NCBI GenBank assembly: GCA_946184925.1
Contig: CAMHHL010000009.1
Location: 1-43,310 of the forward strand
Reading direction: 5' to 3'
DNA from: an uncultured Clostridia bacterium
GTDB taxonomy: Bacteria; Bacillota; Clostridia; Oscillospirales; Acutalibacteraceae
Length of the DNA: 43,310 nucleotides
Positions 35,135-42,793 of this stretch are shown here, piece after piece. Numbering within the stretch: position 1 is the stretch's first letter; each line of letters opens with the position of its first letter. The notes under the pieces are model-generated. The model did no database searches, had not been told where the DNA came from, and saw only the letters and a list, made by a program, of their open reading frames with translations. Made by a program: the position numbers and the translations under genes.

Positions 35135-37504
35135 ATGAAAAGCTCAAAGAAAATTGTCAGCGTATTTCTTTGCGCGGTAATGTGCTGCTCGATGTTCGCA
35201 ATCGGCGCTCAGGCTGCCGCCAAAAAGACAAAGAACTACGTCAAATCCATCAGCGTTGCCCAAAAGGCAACAATCACAATTCCTGCTGACAAGAAAACCC
35301 TTGCCAAAAACTACAAAGTAACCGTCAAGGTCAGCGGCAAGGCTTCAAAGGCGTTCACCGCCAAGTCGAACAAGACCGCGGTTGCCGCCGTCAAGGTTGT
35401 CGGCAGCAAAATCAAGGTCACGGCGAAGAAAGCCGGAACAGCCAAAATCACCGTAACCACAAAGGCAAAGAACCTCAAGAGCAAAAAGCTCAGCAAAACT
35501 CTCACCGTCACAGTCAAGAAGAAAAAGCCTGTAACACCTGCGTCGCTCTCGAAATACTATGTTGACCTGGAGTTAAACTACAACCCTTATGTTGACACAA
35601 GAAAACTGAGCTCGGGTTATCAGGACGTTTATGAAATGATTAATAACCCCAACCCGGACGCCGCTTATTATGCTGTAACGGCTGACAAGAGCGTAGCGGA
35701 AGCCGCCGCACGCGGAACTGAAATCAAAACAGCGGACAAGGGCACAACAACCGCCGACGTCTTTGAAGAACTGAACGGAACCGATAGAAAGCTCGGCACA
35801 GTCAACATCACGGTCAACGATATCGACACCGCGACCGCAGTAAACAACCTGCTTCTCTCCTATGATAAGCCCGGCATGTATGCCGTCTACTTAAAGCTCA
35901 ATTTTGACAAAAAGACCGCGGACGTCGGCTCACTGTACAGAGAAGCGCTGATTAATAACGCAGAGCTTGGCACCAAGCTTGATGAAAAGGACTTCACACT
36001 CAGCTTCAGCTCAAACAACGAGAAGGTTGCAACAGTAAACGAGGACGGCATCATCACCGGCGTTAAAAACGGTGAAGCGCAGATTACCGGAACCATCACC
36101 TTTGCGGACGAATCCGAAACCGAAGAATACACAACCGTAACGGTTTCCGGCGCCGCTCTCGAGAAGGTCGAGGGATATACCATCGACAACATCCGCGAGT
36201 ATGTTCTCGGTCTTGACACTCCCGTTGAGCTTGCGGACGGCAGCACCGCCCCGATGATCAACTTTGACAACGCAGCTACAACGCCGGCGCTCAAGGCTGT
36301 TCAGGACGCTATCGAGGAAGAGCTCAAAATGTACGGCTCAATCGGCAGAGGTTTCTCCCAGAAATCAAACCACTCAACCGACGTCTACAACGCGACAAGA
36401 GACAAGGTTCTCGACTTCTTTTCAGCAGATCCCGAGCTCTACACCTGTTTCTATGTCAACAGCACAACCGACGGTCTCAACAAGCTCGCCTCTGCTCTCA
36501 TCGAGAGCAAAGACGACCTCGTGCTCACCACCAGAATCGAGCACCACGCCAACGACCTCAGCTGGCGCGAGCGCTGCAACAAGGTTCTCTATGCCGAGGT
36601 TGACGAGCAGGGACGCGTTATCTACGACGATATCGAGAAGCTCCTCAAAAAGAACAAGGTAAAGATTGTTTCCGTATCCGCCGCGTCTAACGTCACAGGC
36701 TATGTCAACGACGTTCACAGAGTTGCAAAGCTCGCCCACAAGTACGGCGCTATGATAGTTGTTGACGGCGCTCAGATTGTTGCTCACCGCAAATTCTCGA
36801 TGATGGGCGACCTCAACGACCCGACCGACGACATCGACTTCATTGCTTTCTCCGCTCACAAGATGTATTCACCCTACGGCGGCGGCGCTGTTGTAGGTCT
36901 CACCTCAGAGCTCAACAAGCACGTGCCCACCTTCTACGGCGGCGGCACAATCAAGGTTGTCGGCGACGACTGGCGTATTCTCAAGGACGCCCCGGCGGTT
37001 TATGAGGCAGGCTCACCCAACTATCCCGGCGTTGTCGGTCTCGGAAAAGCGATTGACGTGCTTTCCACAATCGGCATGGACAAAATCGAAGCACACGAGA
37101 AGGTTCTCAACCGCAAGATTATTGACGGGCTCAAAAAGCTCGACAATGTCATCATCTACGGCGACACCGAGAACATCGACGACAGAGTAGGCGTTGTCAC
37201 CTTCAATTTCTCTGACATCAATACCTACTTCATTTCCCAGAAGCTCTCCGAAATCGGCGGCGTAGCCACACGACGCGGCGCGTTCTGCGCTCACCCCTAT
37301 GTATGGAGACTGATGGGTATTTCCGACGAAACCGCAAAGTCCTTCGAGAACTGCACGGACGTCAACACCGCTGGTATGGTTCGCGTAAGCTTCGGAATCT
37401 ACAACAACGAGCAAGACGTTGACAAGTTCCTCGAGCTTATGCCGAAGGTTATGGAAGAAGCCATGAAGCTTCAAAAAACAACTCCCGCAAACCCGCTCTA
37501 TTAA
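35135..37504 (+). CDS. Secreted Ig-like/Lys-rich N-terminal region fused to class V aminotransferase (cysteine desulfurase-like)
   Basis: Signal peptide MKSSKKIVSVFLCAVMCCSMFAIGAQAAA; BIG2-like SSNNEKVATVNEDGIITGVKNGEAQITG; INFDNAATTPALKAVQ; IVVDGAQIVAHRKFS; FIAFSAHKMYSPYGGGAVVG (PLP Lys); RRGAFCAHPYV (SufS-like Cys). Confidence 0.88.
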   Translation: MKSSKKIVSVFLCAVMCCSMFAIGAQAAAKKTKNYVKSISVAQKATITIPADKKTLAKNYKVTVKVSGKASKAFTAKSNKTAVAAVKVVGSKIKVTAKKAGTAKITVTTKAKNLKSKKLSKTLTVTVKKKKPVTPASLSKYYVDLELNYNPYVDTRKLSSGYQDVYEMINNPNPDAAYYAVTADKSVAEAAARGTEIKTADKGTTTADVFEELNGTDRKLGTVNITVNDIDTATAVNNLLLSYDKPGMYAVYLKLNFDKKTADVGSLYREALINNAELGTKLDEKDFTLSFSSNNEKVATVNEDGIITGVKNGEAQITGTITFADESETEEYTTVTVSGAALEKVEGYTIDNIREYVLGLDTPVELADGSTAPMINFDNAATTPALKAVQDAIEEELKMYGSIGRGFSQKSNHSTDVYNATRDKVLDFFSADPELYTCFYVNSTTDGLNKLASALIESKDDLVLTTRIEHHANDLSWRERCNKVLYAEVDEQGRVIYDDIEKLLKKNKVKIVSVSAASNVTGYVNDVHRVAKLAHKYGAMIVVDGAQIVAHRKFSMMGDLNDPTDDIDFIAFSAHKMYSPYGGGAVVGLTSELNKHVPTFYGGGTIKVVGDDWRILKDAPAVYEAGSPNYPGVVGLGKAIDVLSTIGMDKIEAHEKVLNRKIIDGLKKLDNVIIYGDTENIDDRVGVVTFNFSDINTYFISQKLSEIGGVATRRGAFCAHPYVWRLMGISDETAKSFENCTDVNTAGMVRVSFGIYNNEQDVDKFLELMPKVMEEAMKLQKTTPANPLY

Positions 37505-38493: not shown

Positions 38494-41400
38494 ATGCAAA
38501 AATTTATTAAAAGACCGCTGAGTATCTTGCTCGCGGCACTAATGCTCGTCAGTGTTTTCACGGTTGTGCCCATCACTGCGAGCGCGGCTGATAAGATGGA
38601 AACAGTTAGCCTTTCATCGCGCTGTAACGAAGATGATGAGGCCATAACATTCAGTTCGGACCACTTTTTGTTTGAGCCGGGCGATTATTTGTCCTCGCTT
38701 ACTGACGCCTGGCTGCTCGACGGAGATTATCCCGAAGACAGTTATTTTGACATCACCGCCTTAAACGAAGAAACCATCACGAAGCTGGTGCTCCACAGAA
38801 CCAATAGCGAAAACACCCCTGTTGTCACTGTAAACGGAAATAATGTTTCTTATACGAAATCAGGTTCAAGCTTTACCTTTGATAACATAAATGCTTCTGA
38901 AGTACGGATAGGCGCAAACGGTAATTATGACGAAGAAGGTATATTAGACTGCTATTGCGAGATTGAATCTGTTGACATCTATTATTCCGGCGGCGCTACT
39001 GCTTTTGATGTAGTGTGGAAAAACTGGGACGGCTCCGTTCTCGAAACCGACCAGAAGGTTCCGGAGGGTACCATCCCAACCTACGACGGCGCACCGCCCA
39101 CCAAAGCAGAGACCGAGTTCTACACCTACACCTTCAAAGGCTGGACTCCCTCTGTTACTGCCGTAACCAAAAAAGCGACCTACACGGCGACTTACACCGC
39201 AACGCTGAAAGATGGTGTTACCGAAAAAATGGAAACAATCAGTCTGGCACATCATTGTGATAGCGTTTTCGCCACAAGCTTCAACTCAAACCGCTTTTCA
39301 GTTATCCCTAACGAAGACAACGTGGGGGGAAATCCGGGCAGCTGGGACTTTGATGGTTATGATTATATAAGCTCCTATGCTGACATCAAAGCCAGATACG
39401 GAGAAATCATCACGAAGCTGGTCGTTCACAGTGACAACAGCGGATCCAATCCGGTTGTCACCGCAGACGGAAGCAATATTGCTTACACTCAATCCGGCAA
39501 AAACTACACCTTTGATGGCATCGGCGCTTCTCAAGTCAGGATAGGCTCAGAACATTCCGACACCAAATATCTCACTGTCACAGCAATTGACGTCTATTTT
39601 GTTGGCGGCGCTACTGCTTTTGATGTAGTCTGGAAAAACTGGGACGGCTCCGTTCTCGAAACCGACAAGAACGTTTCCGTGGACACCATCCCAACCTACG
39701 ACGGCGAAAAACCCACAAGACCCGGCAACGATATGTACAGCTACACCTTCAACGGCTGGACGCCTGAGGTTGTTGCGGTAGCAGGCGAAGCAACCTACAC
39801 CGCTGCCTTTACCTCAACGGCGAATTACTCTGAAGCAGATGTGCAAAAACGCACGATTACTCTGCCCAACCATCAAGACCCGTTCAGCACTAACCGCTTT
39901 TCTGTCGAACCGGGTTCGAATGTATTCAATGATAACGGATGGGAGCTTGACGGCGATTATGACGATGGCAGCACGATTTCGATTTCTGCCCTGAACGGAG
40001 AAAAGATTGTAAAGGCTGTATTATACAGAAGCGAAGGCGATAATCATCCTATTATAGTTGCAGATGGACAAACTGTCGTCGGCACACAGAACGGCAGCCA
40101 GTTCACCTTCGAAAACATGAGCGCTTCTGAATTCACTATAGAACCAAATAAGAATTATGATACCTTTACGCTGGACAGCTGTCTGTCTGTCAATAAGATT
40201 GACATCTATTATATCGGCGGAACTCCCGGATATACCGTAACATGGAAGAACGCGGACGGCACAACTCTCGAAACCGACGAGGATGTTATCGAAGGCACGA
40301 TGACGAACTATGACGGCTCAACGCCCCAAAAGGCACCTACAGATGAGTTTGAATACAAGTTTATCGGCTGGGATCCCGAGGTTGATGACGTATACCAAGA
40401 CACTACCTACACCGCGCAGTATGAAGAAGTACCGCATTTCAAAATCACATGGAAGAACGAGAACGGCTCGGTTATTGACAGTACCTACGTTTTGCCCGGC
40501 GCAGCGCCCACCCACAGCACTCCCAAAAAGGCTGAAACCACTTATTATACCTACACATTCACCGGATGGACGCCCGAGGTCGTTGCGGCAACGGAAAACG
40601 CTGAATACACCGCAACCTTCAAGGCAGTTCACAAGCCCGCGAACATCACTACCGGCAAATATATCCGTATGGGCTCTTACAACGGCGTGCCTGTTGACTG
40701 GTACTGCCAGAGAGTCAACAGTACCGGATATATGATGCTCTGTAAATACGGTCTTAAAGCCGGCAGATTCGGCTCCAACGCAACCTACAAAACGAGTGAT
40801 ATTCATAAATGGCTCGAAGGTTCCTTTGCAACCGATTTGGGCTTGACAAAGGCTGAGCTTAGCATTGTGCGCACCGTCAACCTTTCTTCGACAAACGGCG
40901 ACGGTTCCGATCGCTTCATCATCCCGTCTTATGACAATGACGAGCTGAACAAAGGTCAAAAGGTTAATGCTCCGTATAACATCAACAACCCATCAAGCCT
41001 CTTAAGCATTTACTGGCTCCGCACAGCAAGAGACACCAGCAACGCAAGAGTCATCAACCACTCCAAGGACGGCTCGCCCGTTGCGACCGTTGCCGCACGC
41101 TACAGCGGCGTTACAAATTCACAGTGGATTCGTCCGATGTTCTATCTGGATACCACCGCTGTAAAGAAACTCGCTTGCGAAGGCACGGGCACAGCGGCTG
41201 ATCCATATGTATTTGAGCAGAGATACAATGTTACCTCAAACGTCACACCAAGCGGCAGCGGTACTGTTACGGCAACAGCGGCGCGTGACGGTCAGACAAT
41301 CTTCAGCGGTTCTATGCCGAAGGAAATGGTAACCGGCGCAGAGATTACTCTGACAGCAACACCCGCGACAGGCTATGTGCTCAAGAGCCTTACCGTAACA

Positions 41401-42444
41401 GACGCTGACGGCGCACCCGTTCCGGTTAACGGCAACAAGTTCACCATGCCCGAGAGCGATATCACCATAACGACTGAGTTTGAAAAGCTGAAGTTCACCA
41501 TAACATGGCAGGACGACGAGGGCTCCGTTATTGACACAGCAACAGTCGAATACGGCGAAGTACCGACTCACGCTGAACCCGTAAAGGAATCTACCGACGA
41601 ATTTGATTACACCTTTGCCGGCTGGTCTCCCGAGGTTACTGCCGTTACAGCCGACGCAACCTACACCGCAACTTTCAACAGCACAAAGCGTTCCTACACC
41701 ATCACATGGAAGAACGGCGATGATGTTCTTGCAACCGACTCCGTCACTTACGGAGAAACTCCTGTTTATACAGGCGAAACTCCCGCGAGGGCTGCGGACA
41801 ACGAGTACATCTACAAGTTCGCCGGCTGGTCTCCCGAGGTTACTGCTGTCACAGGCGACGCGGAATACTCCGCACAGTTCACATCCGAGCCGAAACCTGT
41901 TTCCGACACTTACACTACAGAGGACGGCAAAGTTGTCGAGCTCGCCGGGACCTTCACTCGCGACGCGGACGACAAGGCTAACTTCGGCATCGGCAACGTG
42001 TTCAAGAATCTTGAAATCCTCGGTGTTCAGAAAAAGCACAGCGATGCGGACGAGAGCCGCGGAGTTCGTTTCGTTACGGTAATCGACAACGAAGTTGTTC
42101 AGGACGCCGAAGACTACGGCTACATCGCAGTTGCAGGCGACGACATGAATGACGCGAGAGAGAAAATCGCGGACGTAACTCTCGACACTGTTTCCGCGAA
42201 AAACGTGTTCACCTGCAAGGGAACCGACAACACTGTCAGCGGAGACTACGGAAAGTATAGCTCCGACAAGAGCTATAAGTACGTCACCTTCGCGATTAAC
42301 AACATCAGAGAGAAGGGCGTCGCGGTTATGTTCTATCTCAAGGACAAGAACGGCAACGTCTACTACGCGCCTTACACAAACAAATCAGGCGATAGCTTCA
42401 ACAACTGCGCGGTAGACTGGGCAGCTCTTACCGGCAGCAACTAA
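38494..42444 (+). CDS. Large secreted repeat protein (Listeria/Bacteroides-type InlB_B repeats and a DUF6273-like domain)
   Basis: Signal peptide MQKFIKRPLSILLAALMLVSVFTVVPITASA; repeated VxWKNxDGSVLETDxx...TFxGWTPEVxAVxxxATYTATF units; KYIRMGSYNGVPVDWYC...SIYWLRTARDTSNARVI...SQWIRPMFYLD resembles DUF6273; no LPXTG or dockerin seen. Confidence 0.85.
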   Translation: MQKFIKRPLSILLAALMLVSVFTVVPITASAADKMETVSLSSRCNEDDEAITFSSDHFLFEPGDYLSSLTDAWLLDGDYPEDSYFDITALNEETITKLVLHRTNSENTPVVTVNGNNVSYTKSGSSFTFDNINASEVRIGANGNYDEEGILDCYCEIESVDIYYSGGATAFDVVWKNWDGSVLETDQKVPEGTIPTYDGAPPTKAETEFYTYTFKGWTPSVTAVTKKATYTATYTATLKDGVTEKMETISLAHHCDSVFATSFNSNRFSVIPNEDNVGGNPGSWDFDGYDYISSYADIKARYGEIITKLVVHSDNSGSNPVVTADGSNIAYTQSGKNYTFDGIGASQVRIGSEHSDTKYLTVTAIDVYFVGGATAFDVVWKNWDGSVLETDKNVSVDTIPTYDGEKPTRPGNDMYSYTFNGWTPEVVAVAGEATYTAAFTSTANYSEADVQKRTITLPNHQDPFSTNRFSVEPGSNVFNDNGWELDGDYDDGSTISISALNGEKIVKAVLYRSEGDNHPIIVADGQTVVGTQNGSQFTFENMSASEFTIEPNKNYDTFTLDSCLSVNKIDIYYIGGTPGYTVTWKNADGTTLETDEDVIEGTMTNYDGSTPQKAPTDEFEYKFIGWDPEVDDVYQDTTYTAQYEEVPHFKITWKNENGSVIDSTYVLPGAAPTHSTPKKAETTYYTYTFTGWTPEVVAATENAEYTATFKAVHKPANITTGKYIRMGSYNGVPVDWYCQRVNSTGYMMLCKYGLKAGRFGSNATYKTSDIHKWLEGSFATDLGLTKAELSIVRTVNLSSTNGDGSDRFIIPSYDNDELNKGQKVNAPYNINNPSSLLSIYWLRTARDTSNARVINHSKDGSPVATVAARYSGVTNSQWIRPMFYLDTTAVKKLACEGTGTAADPYVFEQRYNVTSNVTPSGSGTVTATAARDGQTIFSGSMPKEMVTGAEITLTATPATGYVLKSLTVTDADGAPVPVNGNKFTMPESDITITTEFEKLKFTITWQDDEGSVIDTATVEYGEVPTHAEPVKESTDEFDYTFAGWSPEVTAVTADATYTATFNSTKRSYTITWKNGDDVLATDSVTYGETPVYTGETPARAADNEYIYKFAGWSPEVTAVTGDAEYSAQFTSEPKPVSDTYTTEDGKVVELAGTFTRDADDKANFGIGNVFKNLEILGVQKKHSDADESRGVRFVTVIDNEVVQDAEDYGYIAVAGDDMNDAREKIADVTLDTVSAKNVFTCKGTDNTVSGDYGKYSSDKSYKYVTFAINNIREKGVAVMFYLKDKNGNVYYAPYTNKSGDSFNNCAVDWAALTGSN
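38989..39666 (+). repeat. Pair of near-identical ~64-nt direct repeats inside the secreted protein gene
   Basis: ggcggcgctactgcttttgatgtagtNtggaaaaactgggacggctccgttctcgaaaccgac at 38989 and again at 39604. Confidence 0.9.
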
Positions 42445-42461
42445 TTAAAGGAGAAATGAAC

Positions 42462-42593
42462 ATGAAGGAATATAAAGTACCTGAAATCGAAAAGATTGAA
42501 TACGGCACCGAGGACACCCTTACGGAGAGCAACGAGGACAACAAGACAGTTTCCGACATCAACGAGCTCCTCAATGAACCCACCGCTCCTTGA
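42462..42593 (+). CDS. Small peptide, 43 aa (paralogue 1)
   Basis: MKEYKVPEIEKIEYGTEDTLTESNEDNKTVSDINELLNEPTAP*; AAAGGAG SD 8 nt upstream; shares its N-terminal ~25 aa with the next ORF. Confidence 0.75.
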   Translation: MKEYKVPEIEKIEYGTEDTLTESNEDNKTVSDINELLNEPTAP

Positions 42594-42607
42594 CGCAGGG
42601 TGTTGCT

Positions 42608-42751
42608 ATGAAAAAAGAATATCGCTCACCTGAATTCGAACCTATAAAGTATTCAGTTGAAGACGTATTGCTTGAGAGCAATACTAACCCTACCAATCCC
42701 ACTAACCCGACCGGAACCGACGGCTGGGAAGAACACATAAACAAACCATAA
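42608..42751 (+). CDS. Small peptide, 47 aa (paralogue 2)
   Basis: MKKEYRSPEFEPIKYSVEDVLLESNTNPTNPTNPTGTDGWEEHINKP*; homologous to the upstream ORF in its first ~25 aa; followed directly by a terminator. Confidence 0.75.
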   Translation: MKKEYRSPEFEPIKYSVEDVLLESNTNPTNPTNPTGTDGWEEHINKP

Positions 42752-42756
42752 TTTCA

Positions 42757-42793
42757 GCGGAGACAGTTCACCTTGAATTGTCTCCGCCTTTTT
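42757..42793 (+). terminator. Intrinsic terminator after the small-peptide genes
   Basis: GCGGAGACAgttcaccttgaatTGTCTCCGCcTTTTT. Confidence 0.93.

Follow-up and report, generated by a model that had tools for sequence, protein, structure and literature searches.

In the window, by which we mean the whole stretch of 43,310 nt analysed here, two small genes lie in tandem between the gene of a large Sec-secreted protein and a terminator. The features of the locus are as follows:

38494..42444 (+): gene of a 1316-aa Sec-secreted protein with signal peptide MQKFIKRPLSILLAALMLVSVFTVVPITASA and InlB/Flg_new_2-like repeats (Pfam Flg_new_2, 1.8e-8)
41932..42441 (+): its C-terminal domain (CTD), of CTD family 2, common to 13 other secreted proteins that precede precursors (blastp clustering, alignment)
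42462..42593 (+): candidate precursor peptide gene 1 (ORF1, 43 aa), MKEYKVPEIEKIEYGTEDTLTESNEDNKTVSDINELLNEPTAP (ORF list, family profile)
42462..42521 (+): predicted leader of peptide 1, with Y4, P7 and I9 and a predicted cut after L20, placed by register with lasso and LPP leaders
42528..42530 (+): Ser23 codon of peptide 1, predicted phospho-acceptor at core position 3, the near-invariant Ser at Y+19
42608..42751 (+): candidate precursor peptide gene 2 (ORF2, 47 aa), MKKEYRSPEFEPIKYSVEDVLLESNTNPTNPTNPTGTDGWEEHINKP (ORF list, genome search, profile)
42608..42670 (+): predicted leader of peptide 2, with Y5, P8, F10, V20 at -2 and a predicted cut after L21
42677..42679 (+): Ser24 codon of peptide 2, predicted phospho-acceptor at core position 3
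42680..42712 (+): N-P-T repeat linker of peptide 2, read from the sequence
42719..42748 (+): C-terminal tail DGWEEHINKP of peptide 2, pattern [DE]G[WY]xxx[IV]x[KQR]P
42757..42787 (+): intrinsic terminator at the operon end (14-pair stem and T-run, dG -22.8, z -6.5)

Both small genes are genuine and not chance ORFs. The two leaders share 59% of their residues over 22 aa, in agreement with the earlier note, which had described tandem paralogues of about 45 aa with a shared N-terminus, and a whole-genome search with ORF2 recovered ORF1 at E=0.0016 and a copy on another contig at 2e-5. An alternative in-frame ATG of ORF1 at 42456 lies too near the ribosome site AAAGGAG, so 42462 is taken as the start. 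The layout is also as noted before, with a large secreted protein gene in front and a strong terminator behind: the 1316-aa gene ends 17 nt before ORF1 and 163 nt before ORF2, and the two ORFs are 14 nt apart. The NPT triplets that had been seen in one tail make up the linker of peptide 2. The AF2 model of the CTD is of low confidence (pLDDT 73.5) and gave no confident fold match. Further upstream, positions 35135-37504 (+) encode a 789-aa protein with a signal peptide and Big_2 Ig-like domains; it holds a complete class-V aminotransferase/cysteine-desulfurase-like domain (PF00266, 4e-82) and is apparently a Sec-exported PLP enzyme.

The peptide family and its leader

About 93 non-redundant members of the family were examined, and no family for them was found in Pfam and NCBIfam. 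In the 2.32-Mb genome of the organism itself, the family profile gave copies at about 15 loci, on contigs C9, C1, C6, C7, C8, C11, C12, C57, C60, C69, C72, C95, C109 and C139; the C109 peptide may be an assembly duplicate because it is identical to that of C11. Homologues of the leader, for which a search had been proposed, are also present in 35 of 59 relatives. Other genomes have up to 20 precursors; 20, 15 and 14 were counted in G241, G072 and G071, with one or two RREs each. Purifying selection, a second check proposed for the leader, is seen in related pairs, where dN/dS is about 0.1-0.25 for leader and tail alike. The tails had been called unrelated, which is too simple a description, since precursor tails form sub-families conserved between species and that of ORF2 recurs on secreted proteins of kinase operons.

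The family consensus is K-x-Y-x-x-P-E-[FIL]-E...[FY]-x-x-E-D-[VI]-[IL]-x-x-S, followed by the variable tail. The aromatic residue could serve as anchor in 71 of the 75 genus-centred members and in 31 of 47 from elsewhere, which gave the pattern Y0, P+3, [FIL]+5, [FY]+10, D+14, [VI]+15, [IL]+16 and S+19, in which P+3 is true by construction because the anchor demanded it. Position +15 is V or I in 100% of the wider set, and Ser occupies +19 in 97%. In the genus set, Ser stands at +19 in 62% and at +20 in 32%, the latter chiefly where a leader has an extra residue. Counted from the predicted cut, the register becomes Y(-17), P(-14), a hydrophobic residue (-12), [VI](-2) and Ser(+3); within the window, residue -2 is Val in ORF2 and Thr, the ordinary lasso residue, in ORF1. 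When the leader profile was compared with all PDB sequences, the single match up to E=10 was the TbiA-alpha lasso leader MKEYRSPELK (E=0.31), which is exactly of the kind expected, although weak on its own.

Variant precursors at three places (L092, L093 and L072:6901-7140) carry YERTELE in place of YxxPE, so that the RRE-binding Pro is lost; these variants come after secreted proteins with a YxxAAxxYF-type C terminus.

An RRE, kinase and peptidase module elsewhere in the genome

A look for maturation genes beyond the window had been proposed. A PqqD-like RRE gene and a peptidase gene were indeed found on contig C77, the latter of signal-peptidase type; of the other kinds proposed, radical SAM and C39 ABC-peptidase, none was seen among the operon genes, and maturation by either was set aside. 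The module consists of:

C77:2982-3695: HPr-kinase-like gene, with P-loop GTGKST and a fold match
C77:3699-3965: discrete PqqD-like RRE gene (PF05402, 54.9 bits), the sole such gene in the genome
C77:3955-4434: signal-peptidase-like gene, with invariant Ser24/His63 and signal peptidase I as best PDB match (4nv4, E=1e-3)

The RRE has residues equivalent to the Tyr/Pro pocket of LppB (N33, Y60, D70, F74), and at E<0.1 its profile matched only lasso and LPP RREs in the PDB, namely TbiB1 (2e-8), PbaB1 (3e-8), TfuB1 (6e-8) and LppB (6e-6). The kinase retains the conserved P-loop and NDDKP. A PDB search with the single kinase sequence gave no matches, so a fold comparison was needed; the AF2 model (pLDDT 94) has PEPCK (PEP carboxykinase)/HPr-kinase as top fold matches (E about 1e-5). 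In the peptidase, the 39-residue spacing of Ser24 and His63 equals that of S29 and H68 in LppS. No exporter was found beside the C77 module, and the NTP_transf_5 genes of this genome are on C4 and C14.

Among 51 RRE loci of the genus/order set, about 20 have a precursor on the same strand within about 2.5 kb; an ABC exporter and an NTP_transf_5 gene are present at many loci as well. The order secreted protein, precursor, kinase, RRE, peptidase, exporter and/or nucleotidyltransferase is found in distant families as well (e.g. L331, L333), and at two loci (L072, L078) the PqqD-like gene comes after peptide genes. The kinase module also occurs in named records, from rumen/gut Ruminococcus-like and other Clostridia assemblies to Ruminococcus flavefaciens Y1; a precursor was detectable at 15 of 80 such loci, and none was found beside the module of R. 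flavefaciens Y1. In one record titled Synergistaceae (L274), four tandem small leader-bearing ORFs stand immediately 5' of the kinase gene. Several loci (e.g. L078, L088, L102) have no kinase gene nearby, and the P-loop is missing in eight of 29 kinase-family members (L072:15232-15903, L094:8077-8760 and six more); phosphorylation is therefore not universal, and non-phosphorylating variants must exist. The P-loop-less members adjoin RRE, peptidase and exporter genes and are probable pseudokinases.

We searched 392 other Clostridia genomes with both profiles: 55 matched the precursor profile, 99 the RRE profile and 49 both. The RRE is thus present in 49 of 55 peptide-bearing genomes versus 50 of 337 others (Fisher p=7e-28); relatedness inflates this p value, the co-occurrence being partly phylogenetic, and the count by family (20 of 22 families) is the safer figure. 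Two of the six genomes with peptide and no RRE are matches inside long ORFs and are probably spurious. At the level of sequence, the family, its machinery, their linkage and co-occurrence, the selection and the register are established. The RiPP-type precursor pair proposed in the earlier note is supported by the RRE operons, the co-occurrence and the purifying selection on the leader, and we consider it highly probable that both ORFs are precursors of a kinase-type, cyclase-free, LPP-like RiPP pathway of Oscillospirales/Clostridia.

Placement of the precursors behind secreted proteins

A single RRE is set against some fifteen precursor loci in this genome, and most precursor copies are far from an RRE operon. 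Upstream of 73 of the 93 precursors, on the same strand, an ORF of 100 aa or more ends within 160 nt, in most cases at 12-24 nt, and 45 of 78 lie no more than 30 nt behind a gene of at least 300 aa. By a simple rule, 35 of 42 complete upstream genes encode a signal peptide versus 36% in the background (p=2e-9); of the seven that failed, several seem to have been given a wrong start, and in one the rule overlooked an obvious signal peptide. By their C-terminal domains, the upstream proteins group into two main families, with 22 and 14 members. The scattering of the precursors and their placement behind secreted proteins are new here, as are the shared CTDs and the tails that precursors and secreted proteins have in common. 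Association between tail and upstream CTD was weak and not significant in a Mantel test (p=0.15). Significance was reached by shuffling within genomes (p=0.0005) and by a difference in acidity (32% vs 17%, p=1e-5), but these results do not amount to co-evolution of tail and CTD, because related gene pairs inherit both halves.

Tails are also held in common by precursors and secreted proteins. Of 7957 ORF proteins, 10 have a C terminus of the form [DE]G[WY]xxx[IV]x[KQR]P: ORF2 and nine others, all nine from RRE loci, where their genes lie just upstream of the RRE operon; these nine are small secreted proteins, often with dockerin. One, a secreted dockerin protein, stands beside the C77 kinase, and there a P/T-rich linker precedes the tail, like the N-P-T linker of ORF2. 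A second tail, [IV]D[FW]xxL, is common to lipoproteins and precursors of the same loci. The tail patterns were built after the sequences had been viewed, so the counts indicate specificity and are not an unbiased discovery. At L086:1824-2985, a pair of small secreted proteins with tails xIDFSDLE and DG[WY]xxxIx[KQR]P lies just upstream of kinase-RRE-peptidase genes, with equivalents at L105, L159, L161, L166 and L173.

The tight spacing behind secreted-protein genes, the distance of most copies from the RRE operon and the missing kinase at some loci would also suit unmodified small companions of the upstream protein (a chaperone, inhibitor or assembly peptide) that are retained in the cytosol or membrane and linked to the RRE only indirectly. 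This explanation is improbable, since the conserved part of the peptides is an RRE-docking YxxP motif with a Ser at the kinase position and not a chaperone-like domain, and since the peptides co-occur with the RRE across genomes and have genes within RRE operons.

The proposed pathway and its relation to known systems

The kinase-type, cyclase-free pathway that we prefer resembles that of the linear polyphosphorylated peptides (LPPs) of Bacilli, described in May 2026 for lppA-K-B-S-D-N of Paenibacillus alginolyticus (PMC13381572). In that cluster, which has no cyclase, an HprK-like kinase was shown experimentally to polyphosphorylate Ser3, and a SipW-like peptidase (catalytic S29, H68 and D93) cleaves in an RRE-dependent manner (PMC13381572). 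The clostridial system likewise has a stand-alone RRE, an HprK-like kinase, a SipW-like Ser/His peptidase and no cyclase, together with short precursors bearing a YxxP leader, Ser3 and a variable C terminus; an MsbA-like exporter and an NTP transferase, also parts of the LPP cluster, are linked in many relatives but were not found beside the C77 module of this genome. Differences are also evident. The clostridial leader, YxxPE[FIL]E..[FY]xxED[VI][IL]xxS, is one residue longer than the LPP leader YxxPxVLxHQxIxFETxxS, of which YxxP and Ser are present and VLxHQ and FET absent. By profile scores, the clostridial RRE is no closer to LppB than to lasso RREs. LPP clusters have 1-3 precursors (PMC13381572), whereas clostridial genomes have many, scattered behind secreted proteins; orphan precursors, secreted partners and Clostridia are not mentioned in the main text of that paper (PMC13381572). 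Because the published leader consensus is absent and the RRE is not specific to LppB, we file the system as a clostridial LPP-like variant. A likeness to HprK/PqqD cassettes (NCBIfam SynChlorMet ScmC, HprK-related kinases A/B) is seen in the best NCBIfam match of the kinase gene, ScmC (8e-5); however, this match is far under the curated cut-off, and no radical SAM partner was seen.

Precursors of kinase-type lasso peptides have the RRE motif at -17 to -12 and Ile/Val at -2, and their kinase modifies Ser3 (PMC10368454). The same YxxPx[L/F] at -17 to -12 as in Bsf of Bradymonas (PMC10368454) and paeninodin, the Ile/Val at -2 and phosphorylatable Ser3 position of BsfA, and the B1 RRE, kinase, nucleotidyltransferase and ABC pump are all found in the clostridial system, the last two linked to it in relatives; the RRE is most like lasso B1 proteins, and in the PDB the leader profile matched a lasso leader only. 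It is nevertheless very unlikely that the peptides are cyclised into true lassos: the B2 peptidase (PF13471) is absent from this genome (G000), with none above cut-off in the genus and weak matches in 5 of 59 genomes; no cyclase was seen in the C77 module, three strong Asn_synthase-domain genes lying elsewhere and not beside the RRE; and core position 1 (Y+17) has no conserved Gly, with Thr and Leu predominating, then Ala. Least credible of all are immunity or antitoxin partners of polymorphic secreted toxins, in which a small gene likewise comes after that of a large secreted protein, because the upstream proteins end in conserved C-terminal domains and not in variable toxin tips, and the RRE leader is common to peptides behind unrelated upstream proteins.

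Returning to the LPP-like pathway, we infer all of its biochemistry in this organism from LPP clusters, which have the same parts and in which kinase and peptidase were demonstrated by experiment; the proposed partnership with secreted proteins is drawn from gene placement. Trimming, phosphorylation and export of the peptides are probably the work of machinery encoded outside the window. The stand-alone C77 RRE would dock the YxxPE[F/I] leader, the HPr-kinase-fold enzyme would phosphorylate the near-invariant Ser at core position 3, and the Ser/His signal-peptidase-like enzyme would then cut three residues before this Ser, after the [V/I/T]-[L/I] pair. Export of the core, which is short and acidic or aromatic, would be by an MsbA-like ABC pump, and the NTP_transf_5 enzyme may decorate it further. 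One central module would thus serve many precursors scattered over the genome. Most of these appear positioned for translational coupling to a Sec-secreted, surface-type protein, and for this reason the peptide most likely acts at the cell surface together with the upstream protein.

A more specific arrangement is possible, although we hold it only tentatively: LPP-like peptides may be custom companions of secreted surface proteins, one phosphopeptide per giant-protein operon and one shared module, with the exported peptide binding, anchoring or regulating its protein via the CTD, and the same tail on Sec-secreted lipoprotein or dockerin proteins could act in the peptide's place. If true, this would be a display system not described before.

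With this family, the gene lists of common gut and rumen bacteria grow by many small genes that are in neither Pfam nor NCBIfam; mining based on clusters would miss these RiPP precursors because they are far from their enzymes. In 2026, LPPs were described as having no known role. The genomic rule seen here ties them to the cell surface: across many clostridial families, precursors come directly after secreted proteins, and CTDs and tails are shared. This placement is the first testable clue to the function of a recently described peptide family.
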